Assembly: GCA_903909215.1 (NCBI GenBank) | Contig: CAIVUX010000005.1 | Coordinates: 1-56,169, forward strand | Reading direction: 5' to 3' | Source of the DNA: an uncultured Ferrovum sp. | GTDB lineage: Bacteria > Pseudomonadota > Gammaproteobacteria > Burkholderiales > Ferrovaceae | DNA length: 56,169 bases | Shown: positions 9,006-14,990 of the stretch, one piece after another | Position numbering within the stretch: position 1 is the first letter of the stretch | Layout: every line of letters begins with the position of its first letter | Notes under the pieces: model-generated | Seen by the model: only the letters and a program-made list of their open reading frames with translations | What the model was told of the DNA's origin: nothing | The model's database searches: none | Program-made: the position numbers and the translations under genes

Positions 9006-10751
9006 TTAGTCAGGTAAACCAAATACCATCATGCCGCCACCATGGTTCAGGTGTTCGAACAATTGGTCATATACCAAGGGGAATAAGCTACCGCCACCAG
9101 GACCGTAGACAACGGCAATATATTGCTTGCCGTCAGCACCGGTAAAGGAGGTTGGGTTGCCGTGTATTCCGGTCCCTACATTAAAGCGCCAAAGCGTTTC
9201 ACCTGTGTCATCACGCATGGCAGAGAAAATCCCTTCTGCGTCACCTGAGAACACTAAGCCGCCTGCTGTTGTTACTAAACCGCTGGTGGCTGGTGTGCTT
9301 TGTGGTTTCGTCCAAACCTGTTCACCGGTTGTGGCATTAAACGCTTTGATACCACCAGTGTAGGGGTTGGCTTTCAACACTCTTGAGGACAGGAACCATT
9401 CACCACTCTTCCATTCCATTTTTTTAGCTTGAATATCCATTGAGCTATCAATAAAAGGAATGTAGATTAGTTTGGTTAATGGGCTATACGCTGCGGGGTG
9501 CCATTCCTTACCGCCATCTAAGATGGGTGCAATATCAGTGGCAATACGGTCATAACGTGGCACTTTGTCTGGATTGACGATGGGGCGGCAATTGTCGCCA
9601 AATCCTGTTACCCAATTCACACGTGCAATGGGGACCACCCAGTTGCACTTGCCGTTTGTACGGTCAATGGAATACAAATGACCATTGCGATCGCCATGCA
9701 ACCAAACCTTGCGACCTTTTTCGTCATTTATCTGGATGACTTCATTGTTACCGTCATAATCCCAGGAATCGTTTGGCGTGTATTGGAAGTGATACTTGAT
9801 TTTGCCGGTATCCGCATCCATGGCCAGCGTTGAGTTGCTGTATAAGTTATCGCCCTTACGAACGCTTGGATCAAAATCTGGCGTTGGGTTGCCCGCGCCC
9901 CATAAAACCGTGTTTGTCTTAGGGTCATAGGAACCGGTTAACCATGCTGATACGCCGCCCACTTTCCATGAGTCGTTGGGCCATGTTTTGGCAACAGGAT
10001 CATTAGCACTTGTAGGACGGGTGTTGGTTTGCCAAATCACTTTGCCGGTGTCAGGGTCGAGCGCTGTAATCTTACCCACGTTGCCGCCCACATCGCTACC
10101 GGAATTCCCCACAATCACTTTGCCCTTCGCAACAAGGGGCATAGAAGTGTAGATTTCACCGGTCTTGTAGTCACCTAATTTAACATCCCAAACAACTTTA
10201 CCAGTGGTGTTGTTTAATGCCACCACATGGCTGTCAAGAGTGGCCATGTAAACCATGTCCTTATACACAGCCACACCTCGATTCACTGCTTCACAGCATA
10301 AACGTGGGCCAATGTCACCAGGTAAGGCATGTTCGTACTTCCAGATAATATGTCCTGTAACGCTATCCACTGAATACACTCTATTCTGACTGGAGGTCAC
10401 ATAGATGCGGCCATTCACCACGGTGGTTTGGCTGTCTTGCGCGTCACTTAGACCAAAGGCCATGTTCCACTTCGGTACCAGTTTTTTCACATTGTCACGA
10501 TTTACTTGTGTGAGTTGGCTAAAACGTGTGGATTGATAATCTTTGCCGTAATGCAGCCAATTGCCCGCATCTTTATCGGCATTAATCAGCATGTCTTCGC
10601 TGACATAATTGGGGCGCCACTTGAATGTGGCTTCAAGCACATTCACACCTAACGGTGGTTCCGGATCCTCGGCTAACGCGTTGACCATCACTCCGAGTGA
10701 CAGCGCGATCCCAAGTGAGATCAAATAATTTTGCTTATTTTTTATTCGCAT
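9006..10751 (-). CDS. PQQ-dependent alcohol dehydrogenase, probably lanthanide type
   Basis: This 581-residue protein has a signal peptide (to about NALA, residue 27) and an eight-bladed quinoprotein propeller with repeated DxxTGKxxW motifs. The adjacent cysteine pair of alcohol quinoproteins is present (C152, C153 in LCCEAVNRG), as are N288 in GAGNPTP and D331 in WDYDG. D333, two residues after the catalytic Asp, is the extra metal ligand that marks lanthanide-dependent members (XoxF, ExaF/PedH). At the position where the family usually has Glu, GNSGSD gives D220. The start at 10751 has GGAGAAG upstream; a longer in-frame start at 10844 lacks this and lies upstream of the predicted transcription start. 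The substrate is unknown; the acetoin genes downstream suggest ethanol, 2,3-butanediol or acetoin-related alcohols. Confidence 0.9.
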   Translation of the reverse strand: MRIKNKQNYLISLGIALSLGVMVNALAEDPEPPLGVNVLEATFKWRPNYVSEDMLINADKDAGNWLHYGKDYQSTRFSQLTQVNRDNVKKLVPKWNMAFGLSDAQDSQTTVVNGRIYVTSSQNRVYSVDSVTGHIIWKYEHALPGDIGPRLCCEAVNRGVAVYKDMVYMATLDSHVVALNNTTGKVVWDVKLGDYKTGEIYTSMPLVAKGKVIVGNSGSDVGGNVGKITALDPDTGKVIWQTNTRPTSANDPVAKTWPNDSWKVGGVSAWLTGSYDPKTNTVLWGAGNPTPDFDPSVRKGDNLYSNSTLAMDADTGKIKYHFQYTPNDSWDYDGNNEVIQINDEKGRKVWLHGDRNGHLYSIDRTNGKCNWVVPIARVNWVTGFGDNCRPIVNPDKVPRYDRIATDIAPILDGGKEWHPAAYSPLTKLIYIPFIDSSMDIQAKKMEWKSGEWFLSSRVLKANPYTGGIKAFNATTGEQVWTKPQSTPATSGLVTTAGGLVFSGDAEGIFSAMRDDTGETLWRFNVGTGIHGNPTSFTGADGKQYIAVVYGPGGGSLFPLVYDQLFEHLNHGGGMMVFGLPD

Positions 10752-11062: not shown

Positions 11063-11078
11063 TGGCACAGTAATTGCA
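11063..11078 (+). promoter_or_regulatory. Sigma-54 promoter for DUF1097-thiS-thiG
   Basis: TGGCACAGTAATTGCA matches TGGCAC-N5-TTGCW perfectly, with the GG and GC pairs correctly spaced. Transcription would start near 11089, 83 bases before the DUF1097 start codon. No stem-loop terminator separates DUF1097 from thiS and thiG, so all three may belong to this transcript. Confidence 0.88.
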
Positions 11079-11171
11079 TAAGTTTTAGTTTGTTGCAGAA
11101 CAACAAAAATTATTCGCCTCCAAGCGATCGTGGCTTCACTTTGATATTTGCATATAACTAAAGAGGGAAAA

Positions 11172-11654
11172 ATGAAAATCCTACACGCGTTGTCCTTGAG
11201 CGTTGCACTGCTGGTTGCCGCATGGGTATACATCAGTATCGGCCTACCACAATTTAAATTTATTCCGTGGATTGGTTTTGTTGCTTGGGCTGCATTTTAT
11301 GCAGCCGGTGGTGGAAGCGCTGGGATTACTAAACCCGTGGCTACCAGTCTTGCCGGTGTTGTGCTGACAGCATTGACCATGTATTGCGTGGGCTTGGCCG
11401 GCGGCGGGTTGGTAGCACTGATGTTCATTATTGCCGTGTTGGCATTCGTGTTGGTTGAAATTTCGAGCATTGGATTATTTTCATACACACCCGCCGCCTT
11501 TCTGGGGGCCGCCTCCTACTTTGGCTACCTAATGTTGCCAGGCAGCAAGCTTGATGTCGATGGCATATTTTTTGTTGCTATATCTTGGATTGCTGGATTA
11601 TTACTGGGTTATGCATCAGAGTTCTTGGGCAAAAAAATGGCAAGCTCTGAATAA
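11172..11654 (+). CDS. DUF1097-family inner membrane protein
   Basis: This 160-residue protein is almost entirely hydrophobic, with about five membrane-spanning stretches: residues 1-24, FIPWIGFVAWAAFYAAGG, the VVLTALTMYCVGLAGG to VALMFIIAVLAFVLVE region, FLGAASYFGYLML and FFVAISWIAGLLLGY. I recognise it as a DUF1097-type protein; no function is established for this family. An AGAGGG site precedes the ATG at 11172. Its sigma-54 promoter is divergent from that of the PQQ dehydrogenase, which suggests a role in the same alcohol or acetoin metabolism, perhaps as a small permease. That role is inference only. Confidence 0.78.
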   Translation: MKILHALSLSVALLVAAWVYISIGLPQFKFIPWIGFVAWAAFYAAGGGSAGITKPVATSLAGVVLTALTMYCVGLAGGGLVALMFIIAVLAFVLVEISSIGLFSYTPAAFLGAASYFGYLMLPGSKLDVDGIFFVAISWIAGLLLGYASEFLGKKMASSE

Positions 11655-11683: not shown

Positions 11684-11905
11684 ATGAATGCTAATGATTC
11701 ACGACCAATGTTGACTGTTAACGGGGAGCGCCTGACGTTGGCGCTCCCTTTCTCTGTATCTGATTTACTCGCCAGTCGCGGACTGTCTCTGAAACGTATT
11801 GCCGTTGAACGCAATGGTGAAATTGTTCCGCGTGGCCTCCACGCACAAACCTTCCTGCAAAACGGTGATCGCATTGAAATTGTGATTGCAGTTGGCGGGG
11901 GTTGA
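11684..11905 (+). CDS. thiS: Sulfur carrier protein ThiS
   Basis: This 73-residue ubiquitin-fold protein ([52 protein letters not shown]) ends in the Gly-Gly required for adenylation and thiocarboxylate formation. It delivers sulfur for the thiazole ring of thiamine to ThiG. The usual ThiS core begins at the second ATG (MLTVNGE, 11708), so the first eight residues may be a short extension. It lies 29 bases after DUF1097 and 19 bases before thiG. Confidence 0.93.
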
Positions 11906-11924
11906 AACCATCTCGGGAAATACC

Positions 11925-12707
11925 ATGAATGACATTCTTCACATTGCCAACAAGCCTTACACGTCACGCTTAATCGTTGGCACGGGCAAATATAAAAATT
12001 TTGAAGAAACTAAAGCGGCCATTGAGTCCAGTGGCGCTGAGATGATTACGGTTGCCATTCGGCGCACCAACATTGGCCAGAATCCTGACGAACCCAACCT
12101 CTTGGACGTACTCTCCCCTGAGCGCTATACCTTGCTTCCCAATAGCGCCGGTTGTTACACAGCAGAAGACGCGCTGCGCACCTTGCGCTTATCGCGTGAA
12201 CTGTTGGATGGACGCACTCTAGTCAAACTCGAAGTGTTGTCTGATCAAAAAACACTTTATCCCAACATGCCTGAAACGGTACGTGCCGCAGAAATTCTCG
12301 TAAAAGAGGGTTTTCAGGTGATGGTGTATTGCACGGACGACCCCATTCAGGCCAAGCGGCTGGAGGAGGTGGGTTGCGTTGCCATCATGCCGTTGGCCTC
12401 CCTCATAGGGTCTGGCATGGGTATTTTAAATCCATGGAACCTGCAACTCATTATTGAAAAGGCCACCGTTCCCGTTTTGGTTGATGCGGGTATTGGCACT
12501 GCATCCGATGCGGCTGTGGCCATGGAACTGGGCTGCGACGGTGTGCTCATGAATACGGCCATTGCCTGCGCCCAGCAACCCGTATTAATGGCCAGCGCCA
12601 TGCGCGATGGGGTACGAGCGGGGAGACAAGCTTTTTTGGCGGGACGGATTCCCAGAAAACATTACTCCGCCAGTGCCAGCTCCCCCACAGTGGGTTTAAT
12701 TACTTAA
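11925..12707 (+). CDS. thiG: Thiazole synthase ThiG
   Basis: This 260-residue TIM-barrel protein shows [38 protein letters not shown] (with the Schiff-base lysine), [31 protein letters not shown] and GVLMNTAIA. It condenses deoxyxylulose phosphate, an imine and ThiS-thiocarboxylate into the thiazole phosphate of thiamine. The start follows thiS closely. With thiC 12 kb away on the other side of the aco operon, thiamine genes flank the thiamine-diphosphate-dependent acetoin cluster. Confidence 0.95.
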
Positions 12708-12771
12708 TTTACTTCAGTATGTGTGATCAAATGCGGCTTTCTGCGCTGAATGCATGTCTCCAGTTTTAAAT

Positions 12772-12787
12772 TGGCATGATATTTGCT
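12772..12787 (+). promoter_or_regulatory. Sigma-54 promoter for a short intergenic transcript
   Basis: TGGCATGATATTTGCT has correctly spaced GG and GC pairs and differs from TGGCAC-N5-TTGCW at one position. It starts 65 bases after the thiG stop. The predicted start site is near 12798, and an intrinsic terminator follows at 12867-12895, so the transcript would be about 95 nt and contain no gene. Confidence 0.8.
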
Positions 12788-12797
12788 TAATTCTTAA

Positions 12798-12895
12798 CTG
12801 CATCTCCTCACTAAGTGGCGTCTCCGTTGGTTATTTCCTAACCGCTGGGCGCTTGCTTCCTCCTAGGGAGTCGTGAAAACGACTCCTTTTTTTTT
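12798..12895 (+). ncRNA. Candidate sigma-54-dependent small RNA with CCUCC motifs
   Basis: The unit is bounded by a good -24/-12 promoter and a strong intrinsic terminator. Between them no start codon opens a plausible reading frame. The sequence contains a hairpin with stem GGTTA/TAACC around a TTTCC loop (12828-12842), flanked by pairing GCG/CGC segments. C/U-rich segments CATCTCCTCAC (about 12801) and CTTCCTCCTAGG (about 12856) are complementary to Shine-Dalgarno sequences. This resembles trans-acting small RNAs that block ribosome sites, but I do not recognise a known family. It lacks the A-rich repeats of CrcZ-type RNAs. An attenuated leader is an alternative, but the next gene has its own promoter further down. 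Confidence 0.6.
12867..12895 (+). terminator. Intrinsic terminator of the small RNA
   Basis: GGAGTCGT and ACGACTCC form an eight-base-pair stem closed by a GAAA tetraloop, followed directly by nine T residues. It is one of the clearest intrinsic terminators in the window. Confidence 0.92.
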
Positions 12896-13150
12896 GCCTA
12901 AACCCATCGTAAAACGTTTGCGGCGCAAAAAATTTCTCTTTCTTCTATTAAACACCTGTATCATTTTCTAAATAGAATGTAACAATTGTAACCATTTAAA
13001 TAATTTCTACGCAATGAATCAGATTTTTTTGTCACGATGTAGCACTACCGCATGGCTTTAATGTCCCAACCCGCACGCCAAGTCTCGTTCAGAACCCTTT
13101 ATTTCAGTTGAACAGGGCGTTTATTCTGTATTCTATACAGCTGAATGAAT
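12896..13150. other. Gene-free region upstream of the second PQQ dehydrogenase promoter
   Basis: No open reading frame is convincing here. TTTGTCAC (13028-13035) resembles the half-sites seen near the other sigma-54 promoters and lies about 120 bases upstream of the next one. A perfect inverted repeat, CTGTAT and ATACAG around TCT (13126-13140), sits ten bases before that promoter and could be an operator. Confidence 0.4.
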
Positions 13151-13166
13151 TGGCATAAATATTGCT
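13151..13166 (+). promoter_or_regulatory. Sigma-54 promoter for the second PQQ dehydrogenase
   Basis: TGGCATAAATATTGCT has GG and GC pairs ten bases apart and one mismatch to the consensus. Transcription would start near 13177, giving an untranslated leader of about 137 bases before the ATG at 13314. Confidence 0.83.
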
Positions 13167-13176
13167 AATGATTTAA

Positions 13177-13313
13177 GCCAAGTGATCAGGGGCTCTTATC
13201 ACCCCGGGTCGCCGACAGTGGATCCAGAACATGTAACGCATTCTGGCTTCTAGCCAATTATCGTAGTCTGTAGCGATTTATTGAAAATAAAAACCTCACG
13301 GGGGAATTCGTTC
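13177..13313 (+). other. Structured 5' leader of the second PQQ dehydrogenase
   Basis: The leader holds a possible GGGG/CCCC hairpin (about 13189-13205) and a second hairpin with arms CCAGAA and TTCTGG (about 13224-13247). GGGGGAA lies about 8 bases before the start codon as the ribosome site. The structures could stabilise the mRNA of what is probably a highly expressed protein; I do not recognise a known riboswitch. Confidence 0.35.
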
Positions 13314-14990
13314 ATGCAAAAACATAAAGTTAAGCAAACATTAAAAATAGTTTCGGCGGCAGTTGCGCTTGGCTTGACCATGCAAGGCGCGGCCTATGCT
13401 GGATCAGGCCCAGGGTATGAAGATCCGAATAACTGGCCACAGTTTCACCGCACCTATAACGCTTGGCATTTCAGCCCATTAAGCCAAATTACCAAGGCTA
13501 ATGTTAAAAAGCTAAAGGTAGCCTGGATTCACCAACCCGGTAACATCACCATGGGTCAGCAATCATTCCCAATCGTAATTGACGGTGTGTTGTATTACAT
13601 TTCCGCCAACAACAATGTTTGGGCTGTAGATGCTGCCACGGGTAAAACTATTTGGCACTACGAAACCAAGCTTGACCCAGTTGCCAACGAAGTATTCTAC
13701 AAAGCCGCTAGCCGTGGCGTGACTGTTGGACGCGGTAAAGTGTTTGTGGGTACTCTGGATGGTCGCTTCTTAGCTCTAGACCAAAAAACCGGTAAAGAAG
13801 TCTGGTCTACACAGTTAACTGACATGAAGAAAGAGTTCGGCGCGCTCTTCTCAGCCCCTCCTCAATTGGCGGGTAATGTTCTGTTTGGCGGCACCACCGG
13901 TGGCGATCAGCCCATTATTGGTAAGATTTTCGCTGTAGACGCCGATACAGGTAAACGTGTTTGGACCATGGAAATTCCCAAGAACGACCCCAAGAGCTGG
14001 CCTAGCGAAAAAGCCCGTTCCGAAGGCGGTGGTACAGCTTGGTGGCCTGGTACTTACGATCCTACAACGGATACCATTTACATCGGTACCAGTAACGCAG
14101 CGCCTGATTACTACCCAGACGAACGTAAGGGTGACAACCTCTACACCGCCACATTGCTGGCTTTGAATCCAAAAGACGGTTCGATTAAATGGCATCGTCA
14201 AGAAGTACCCCATGACGCTTGGGATTACGATTCTGTTTATGAAACATTGTTAATCCCCATTAACGGCAAGGACACCATTGTTCATTTGAACAAGAATGGC
14301 TTTGTTTATGTAATGGATAAAGACAATGGCAAACTGCAAAATGTTTGGCAATATACTGAAAATCAAAACTTCACCTCGGGTATTGATCCTAAAACCGGTG
14401 AAATCCATAACCCGAACTATCCAGAAGTGGGTAAGCAGAAATTATTCTGCCCCAACTTGTTGGGTACTCGTAGCTGGAACCCCGGTGCGTATAACCCCAA
14501 TACCAAATTGTGGTATTCCACTGGTATGGAAGTATGCAACACGGTAACCGGTGCTAAGCAAGAGAAAGTTGAAACCATCAACGGCCTGGCCTTGGGTTTG
14601 TCTGAAATCACATTGGTTGACCCACCTGGCAAGAAGGGTGATGGTTGGTTGGGTGCTTTTGACCCTGCCACTGGTAAGGTTAAATGGAAAATCCGCTTTG
14701 ATCTGCCACCAATCAGCGCTGTATTGACCACCGAAACAGGTCTGGTGTTCATGGGCGATTTCCGCGGCTCCGTGCACGCATATGACGGTGACAATGGTAA
14801 AGAGCTCTGGAACTTCAACACGGGTTCTGGTATTCGCGGCGGTATCGTCAGCTACGCTGTGAATGGTAAGCAATACATTGTTGTTCCTTCAGGTCTGGGC
14901 TCACATGTACCTGGCTTCTTGTCAGGTAAGTTCCCAGAAATTAAGACATTGCCTGGTGGCTCTTCAATCATTGCATTTACTTTAGAATAA
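13314..14990 (+). CDS. PQQ-dependent dehydrogenase lacking the vicinal cysteine pair
   Basis: This 558-residue exported protein (signal peptide ending near AAYAG, residue 30) has the quinoprotein propeller with repeated DxxTGKxxW motifs. Residues N261 (TSNAAPD) and D304/D306 (WDYD) fit PQQ and metal binding, with D306 as the extra acidic ligand of lanthanide-type enzymes. Where alcohol quinoproteins carry adjacent cysteines before the NRG motif, this protein reads FYKAASRG (128-135), so the disulfide ring over PQQ is absent. D198 stands where Glu is usual. Codon choice is uniform and the leader is strong, suggesting abundant expression. The start at 13314 is chosen for its GGGGGAA site and signal peptide. 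The substrate is unknown. Confidence 0.88.
   Translation: MQKHKVKQTLKIVSAAVALGLTMQGAAYAGSGPGYEDPNNWPQFHRTYNAWHFSPLSQITKANVKKLKVAWIHQPGNITMGQQSFPIVIDGVLYYISANNNVWAVDAATGKTIWHYETKLDPVANEVFYKAASRGVTVGRGKVFVGTLDGRFLALDQKTGKEVWSTQLTDMKKEFGALFSAPPQLAGNVLFGGTTGGDQPIIGKIFAVDADTGKRVWTMEIPKNDPKSWPSEKARSEGGGTAWWPGTYDPTTDTIYIGTSNAAPDYYPDERKGDNLYTATLLALNPKDGSIKWHRQEVPHDAWDYDSVYETLLIPINGKDTIVHLNKNGFVYVMDKDNGKLQNVWQYTENQNFTSGIDPKTGEIHNPNYPEVGKQKLFCPNLLGTRSWNPGAYNPNTKLWYSTGMEVCNTVTGAKQEKVETINGLALGLSEITLVDPPGKKGDGWLGAFDPATGKVKWKIRFDLPPISAVLTTETGLVFMGDFRGSVHAYDGDNGKELWNFNTGSGIRGGIVSYAVNGKQYIVVPSGLGSHVPGFLSGKFPEIKTLPGGSSIIAFTLE

Follow-up and report, generated by a model that had tools for sequence, protein, structure and literature searches.

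The window, the whole 56,169 nt stretch of DNA that was analysed, carries on its forward strand a thiG gene (11925..12707; Pfam ThiG), which is the second copy in the genome, and a gene for a PQQ-dependent alcohol dehydrogenase family protein (13314..14990; Pfam PQQ, 249 bits) whose score against TIGR03075, 432.7 bits, is below the cut-off of 480. On the same strand, a sigma-54 promoter with the -24/-12 elements TGGCATGATATTTGCT lies at 12772..12787, a perfect match to TGGCAN6TTGCW, and is followed by an intrinsic terminator, AGGGAGTCGT-GAAA-ACGACTCCTT, at 12865..12895, which has a GAAA loop, a stem of ten pairs and a T9 tract at 12887-12895. Transcription from sigma-54 promoters begins 12 nt past the -12 GC, and the predicted start is therefore near 12798, about 67 nt before the terminator stem; the predicted small RNA, with its start taken from the promoter and its end from the terminator, is about 98 nt long (12798..12895, forward strand). 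There is no ORF of at least 60 aa on either strand from the end of thiG (12707) to the beginning of the PQQ dehydrogenase frame (13281), and ATG is absent from the predicted RNA. The initial annotation had described a sigma-54 promoter and a GAAA-loop terminator with no gene between them, located between thiG and a PQQ dehydrogenase, and both the arrangement and the location are borne out. Two further strict promoter matches occur on the same strand, at 11063..11078 ahead of a DUF1097 gene at 11172 and at 13151..13166 ahead of the PQQ dehydrogenase at 13314. The DUF1097 gene encodes a membrane protein, and together with its strict site (11063-11654) it adjoins the PQQ dehydrogenase cluster.

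The predicted fold of the RNA consists of an open 5′ CUCCUC, an imperfect stem with a UUUCC loop, an open CCUCC and the terminator, in that order, with an MFE of -30.6 and a z of -3.5; 0 of 200 shuffles were equally stable, the terminator contributing part of this stability. In particular, the exposed 5′ segment CATCTCCTCAC (12801..12811), the first anti-Shine-Dalgarno segment, has a mean unpaired probability of 0.99 across UCUCC/CUCCU. The stem-loop (12813..12858) contains the inner hairpin GGUUA-UUUCC-UAACC, and the second anti-Shine-Dalgarno segment, CTTCCTCCT (12856..12864), has its CCUCCU unpaired ahead of the terminator (mean 0.99) and its CUU partly paired; CUUCCU and the middle UCUCC have values of 0.59 and 0.40. 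A CCUCC-type motif thus lies in an unpaired region of the predicted fold. The UUUCC loop and the two exposed CU-rich segments noted earlier are present in this fold, with the one difference that CUUCCUCC has its CUU partly paired.

The same stretch might instead belong to the PQQ dehydrogenase gene as a leader or attenuator, in which transcription from 12772 stops unless a signal lets readthrough reach 13314. The terminator and the start codon are on the same strand, about 420 nt apart with no gene between, and the CUCC before the stem could, as the sequence reads, pair with the GGAG of the stem's 5′ arm to form an antiterminator. However, a separate strict sigma-54 promoter precedes the dehydrogenase at 13314, the predicted fold is dominated by the terminator stem, and Rfam finds no riboswitch or leader at threshold, which together make a leader quite improbable. 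Across the window, only a tRNA reached an Rfam gathering threshold; the four matches in 12700-13320 at E up to 10 are all far under theirs. Among candidate identities, suhB/mmgR (RF00519) was rejected, as its match at 12851-12901 scored 15.6 bits against a gathering threshold of 41 (E 1.5) and covered mostly the terminator.

Sigma-54 sites across the genome

Counts within the window are weak evidence on their own: its three strict sigma-54 sites compare with a shuffle mean of 0.95, but 13 of 200 shuffles reach three, and the looser searches come near expectation, with 21 one-mismatch sites versus 17 expected and 9 loosely defined terminators between 10800 and 15700 versus 6.4 expected. Strict terminator criteria leave two in the window, including that of the predicted RNA. 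The CU motifs alone are only mildly unusual, at most, for the RNA's composition; among composition-matched shuffles, 23% contain CCTCC and 5% contain at least three CTCC. Only two of 16,030 68-mers sampled from the window hold as many CU motifs, and both are the window RNA itself.

The whole 1.53-Mb genome has 15 strict sigma-54 sites, versus one for the reversed pattern. By our own reading of the flanks, 8 of these 15 fall inside coding frames, so chance matches to the strict pattern do exist; the other seven lie upstream of a gene or of the window RNA. Three are those of the window's contig, at C5:11063 (DUF1097 gene), C5:12772 (window RNA) and C5:13151 (PQQ dehydrogenase), and the remainder are at C11:8971 (cytochrome c), C11:12941 (PQQ dehydrogenase), C33:60282 (MFS transporter) and C23:11145, where the upstream placement is less clear; Pfam supports the names of the five genes. 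Further, the genome has one rpoN gene above the NCBIfam cut-off, and four of its seven sigma-54 activator domain matches are strong, so that a -24/-12 promoter at the right distance occurs together with rpoN and activators. One activator gene, C11:10148, sits between the cytochrome c and PQQ dehydrogenase genes of that contig, each with its strict sigma-54 site, and because it adjoins these genes, a sigma-54-controlled set around PQQ oxidation that includes the window RNA is plausible. No 9-mer common to at least three of six upstream regions was found; TGTCRC precedes four of the six sigma-54 sites and is absent before the window RNA and C11:12941.

When the genome was searched for sigma-54-like sites with CCTCC within about 75 nt, 25 places were found, versus 10 for the reversed control. 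A terminator, sought in the next 170 nt, follows in only two of the 25: the window RNA and a second RNA on contig C34. Similarly, a scan of 84 loci for a site plus a terminator returned three places, namely the window RNA, a locus in a Rhodocyclaceae MAG (L017) and the C34 RNA of the source genome (G000).

Two further RNAs of the family

The C34 RNA (L081:2500-2609, equivalent to G000:C34:22178-22285) has a sigma-54 promoter, TGGCACAACAAATGCT, an RNA with CCCUCCUCCUAUUG and a terminator. It follows genes for a histidine kinase and an NtrC-type regulator, and beyond its terminator is an opposite-strand gene that is pnp-like by eye. The regulator is nearest to AtoC/NtrC in NCBIfam, below every cut-off shown, and has 26 matches in 21 of the 32 family genomes; 15 of these are orthologues with 59-100% identity (L085-L099), and the other 11 are at 39-41%. 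A C34-type RNA is present in all 15 orthologue loci, and in none of the nine loci examined among the 11 with 39-41% regulators. It lies directly behind the regulator in 14 of the 15, comprising 13 where it comes after the stop and genome G023, where the regulator runs off its contig and its 3′ end and the RNA are on contig C131; in G006, another gene follows the regulator and the RNA is 1.1 kb further on. The promoter pattern fits 10 of 13 C34-type loci, the other three carrying TGGCC variants, and the RNA core reads (C)CUCCUAUUGUG, with some variation that is greatest in L093 and L098. These counts are not independent, because three of the sequences are near-identical.

The only consensus helix of the C34 family is the terminator; both partners vary in 6 of its 10 pairs, and the covariation term is small, at -0.77. 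Folded singly, the sequences usually pair the CCUCC, often with a GAGG element: 7 of the 14 give it a mean unpaired probability below 0.1, and the remaining ones range from 0.16 to 0.93. A model of the family (R1) aligns with the terminator alone in the window RNA (7.8 bits, E 0.18). Across 399 genomes of the order, 64 match R1 at E up to 0.1 and only four do so strongly, all from the same family; strong matches occur in 4 of the 13 family genomes shown, each with the regulator, and the nine family genomes without one (g2, g4) have no regulator orthologue above 41%. Thirty of the order loci were fetched, 20 were read and 10 were run against Rfam, of which 7 pass the gathering threshold of RF02278, one (L117) scores 27.2 bits and two (L137 and L139) have no match; these sampled loci indicate that the weaker R1 matches belong largely to another family or are bare terminators. 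In seven C34-type loci and in L017, Rfam gave no match at E up to 1. A single-family search of the C34 RNA against RF02278 gave 22.1 bits, with a cut-off of 50, and for this reason a distant kinship between the two may exist. The conserved C34 cassette is a stronger discovery than the window RNA, and the reading of the latter as a small RNA gains support from it, because a second RNA of the same layout in this genome is conserved in relatives.

A third RNA, on contig C36 (G000:C36:3860-3938, L166), begins with GUCUCCUCCUCCUUUAUUGC and scores 35.9 bits against RF02278, below the cut-off. A C36-type RNA stands at the printed place in 13 of 20 fetched family loci, while five are shifted by contig ends and were left unread and two differ; the RNA was noted at L166, L168-L171, L174, L176, L177, L180-L183 and L185, where it begins with GUCUCCUCCUCCUUUAUUGC or close to it. 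In several of these loci, the gene beside the RNA ends like acetoacetyl-CoA reductase by eye. None of the 32 family genomes passes the RF02278 cut-off; at a loose limit, all 32 have some match, and so do 10 of 14 control genomes, for which reason only the individually read C36-type loci are counted. With this third RNA beside the window and C34 RNAs, anti-Shine-Dalgarno RNAs look like a habit of this lineage.

Relatives of the window RNA and origin of its cluster

Conservation in close relatives, which the initial annotation had named as decisive, did not emerge for the window RNA itself: no homologue was found in the 32 family genomes, where the genus is absent apart from the source genome, or in the 399 sampled genomes of the order. 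A plasmid collection also gave no match. The family DNA search yielded, besides the window, 15 weak places in 13 genomes, of which six were examined (L002, L003, L004, L008, L009 and L011, the last as bare sequence only). As candidate homologues, L002 was rejected since it falls in a coding frame, L003 and L004 since they are promoters of an MFS gene, and L008 and L009 since what they hold is a similar promoter, which in L008 precedes a gene of substrate-binding type by eye. In the order, two places besides the window appear at E up to 0.01: L076, between rpoN-like and regulator genes, and L077, in another intergenic stretch. The examined DNA matches were promoter-only or chance matches. Of 30 loci downstream of thiG, 28 were readable, including the window's (L048 was unparsed and L054 ends after 33 nt), and none of the other 27 has the window RNA; the gene following thiG in relatives reads like trmB by eye.

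The other thiG copy is at C18:30119. The C18 thiSG copy is 85.6% identical to that of a family relative, G007; for the window's copy, identity amounts to 73.5% with C18, 77.5% with G007 and 79.1% with the Rhodocyclaceae MAG locus L017. Moreover, the GC content between 9 and 16.5 kb is 46.9%, versus 50.5-54.5% in 20 other stretches. These values weakly suggest that the thiSG-PQQ cluster (thiSG at 11684-12707, within 7.5 kb of low GC) may be an acquired module.

The L017 cluster has the order thiG, a gene that is dihydrolipoamide dehydrogenase-like by eye, a gap, a porin gene, a PQQ dehydrogenase gene with 78% identity to the window's and a cytochrome-like gene. The gap contains a sigma-54 site (L017:3163), about 100 nt with CUCUCCU, and a terminator. 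Of 12 loci around dehydrogenase relatives (L017-L021 and L069-L075, several with short flanks), L017 alone has a site plus a terminator. The similarity of its RNA to the window RNA is no better than that of shuffles (436 of 1000 were as good), and the L017 RNA is analogous solely in its place and layout. The same comparison with the C34 and C36-type RNAs gave 390 and 379 of 1000 shuffles as good, and the matches that the window RNA has in common with the L017, C34 and C36-type RNAs are only 7-9 bases long. Within L017:3078-4853, the porin gene beside the RNA analogue also has its own sigma-54-like site, with TGTCGC repeats upstream.

These comparisons bear on a simpler explanation, according to which the hairpin is the terminator of the thiSG operon and nothing else, the sigma-54 site arose by chance or serves the PQQ dehydrogenase as an auxiliary upstream promoter, and there is no functional RNA. 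It is consistent with the position of the hairpin on the thiG strand, about 157 nt past the end of that gene (12707), with the lack of sequence conservation found for the window RNA and with the strict sites that arise by chance in coding frames (8 of 15); yet the site is perfect, correctly oriented and placed between thiG and the terminator, the dehydrogenase has a strict site of its own at 13151, and the layout recurs in L017 and in the conserved C34 cassette. We consider this explanation unlikely, with an appreciable chance of being right. The window terminator may, in any case, also end thiSG transcripts. With moderate confidence, 12772-12895 is instead a lineage-specific sigma-54-dependent small RNA gene whose product would mask ribosome-binding sites.

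Known systems, mechanism and candidate targets

Betaproteobacteria have small RNAs that imitate the anti-Shine-Dalgarno tail of the ribosome, and their control and purpose are poorly known. GlmY/GlmZ with GlrKR in E. coli and Qrr with LuxO in Vibrio are sigma-54-driven small RNAs, and an RpoN-dependent small RNA has reportedly been described from the glutamine synthetase mRNA (PMC9731577). The targets and structures of all these differ from those of the window RNA, and Rfam gives them no relation to the window or C34 RNAs.

RF02278 is, according to passages of PMC4603805, toxic when cloned in E. coli and detected by Northern blot, with a function in B. cenocepacia that is given there as unknown; from its motif, we infer that it acts on ribosome sites. 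The window RNA resembles it as a short RNA with anti-Shine-Dalgarno repeats and a terminator, and the two share an order (7 of the 10 tested order loci pass); in contrast, no UGGUGGA element is visible by eye in the window RNA, which has a sigma-54 site. Membership in RF02278 was rejected, there being no covariance match at E up to 10 (gathering threshold, 50 bits). In the Rhizobiales, the NfeR1 / alpha-r14 RNAs act on mRNA start regions through exposed anti-Shine-Dalgarno motifs, and passages of PMC10746234 describe three hairpins, each with CCUCCUCCC, and a sigma-70 promoter. The window RNA differs in having one CCUCC and one CUCCUC, both single-stranded, and in belonging to another bacterial class.

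The CrcZ, CrcY and CrcX RNAs of Pseudomonas, controlled by CbrAB, are sigma-54-dependent, and CrcZ acts on the Crc/Hfq complex and is also fed by readthrough from the upstream gene, as passages of PMC8871633 report. The window RNA shares with CrcZ its sigma-54 control, and its terminator, if it ends thiSG transcripts, would recall the readthrough that feeds CrcZ; the C34 RNA additionally lies, like CrcZ, directly downstream of a kinase and an NtrC-type regulator (PMC8871633). The window RNA differs from CrcZ in its anti-Shine-Dalgarno motif and in its position behind thiG, rather than directly downstream of a kinase-regulator pair or beside any two-component system. A CrcZ-like action, as a sponge for Hfq, another RNA-binding protein or an RNA and not through masking of ribosome sites, would agree with the U9 tail, which is compatible with Hfq, and with the known sigma-54 control of sponge RNAs such as CrcZ (PMC8871633); but no repeated protein-binding motif, such as CA-rich repeats, is apparent by eye, the repeated feature being CUCC, and a sponge is accordingly given a low probability.

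By analogy, the best reading is that the window RNA would work like RF02278 and NfeR1 in its action and like CrcZ, GlmY and Qrr in its control, as a member of none of them. As a small RNA gene it is credible but unproven, and it combines known general kinds in a new way; no paper on a sigma-54-controlled anti-Shine-Dalgarno RNA of this kind was found in the open-licence literature searched. The proposed mechanism starts from an enhancer-binding activator that, judging from the shared strict sites, would switch on the window RNA together with the PQQ alcohol dehydrogenases, the cytochrome and the transporter. The RNA of about 98 nt would end at its own terminator, and its two exposed CU-rich segments would keep ribosomes from binding chosen mRNAs by pairing with their Shine-Dalgarno sequences. 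Tentatively, and as a possibility that may well prove wrong, sigma-54 circuits of the family could carry their own ribosome-site-blocking RNA, so that the activator turns on genes and, with them, an RNA that silences other messages; the C34 cassette, whose CCUCC is often held in a stem and must open, and the exposed, recently arisen window RNA would be its examples. A sigma-54-controlled set with one member conserved beside its probable regulator would tie anti-Shine-Dalgarno RNAs to defined signals and make their role testable, and, if true, would add a repressing arm to the sigma-54 control of alcohol-oxidation genes.

Candidate targets were ranked among 437 approximate start regions, drawn from the window, the MFS locus and 400 kb of the genome; through the overlap of L034 and L200, some few may have been counted twice. 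For the CAUCUCCUCAC segment, the PQQ dehydrogenases at 9006 and 13314, the DUF1097 gene and the cytochrome gene rank 169, 254, 364 and 391; for the CUUCCUCC segment, they rank 36, 91, 265 and 170; and for the UUUCC loop, 23, 277, 219 and 197. Among the neighbours, only the dehydrogenase at 9006 comes close to the top, with its ranks of 36 and 23 for two of the segments. The proposal of a sigma-54 RNA with anti-Shine-Dalgarno motifs is thus retained as the best reading, with the conserved C34 design behind it, but its expected targets, the neighbouring genes, are not clearly favoured (ranks 23-391 of 437).

Of the linked genes, the distant MFS gene of contig C33 is the best candidate; it has its own strict sigma-54 site and ranks 9 of 437 for the 5′ segment, at -18.5 kcal/mol, and several of the regions placed above it look like miscalled starts. 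With the other two segments, its ranks are 260 and 29. Its start region alone holds TGAGGAGATG, the full 10-base complement of the 5′ segment's CATCTCCTCA. This target is suggestive only, because at least six linked genes were tried. If it were repressed by the window RNA, the transporter and the RNA could form an incoherent feed-forward loop, which these ranks and sites weakly suggest.

As a separate observation, the window-like sigma-54 promoters at L003 (G015) and L004 (G002) stand before an MFS gene, as does C33:60282 in this genome; by eye, the gene at L003 and L004 is oxalate/formate antiporter-like.
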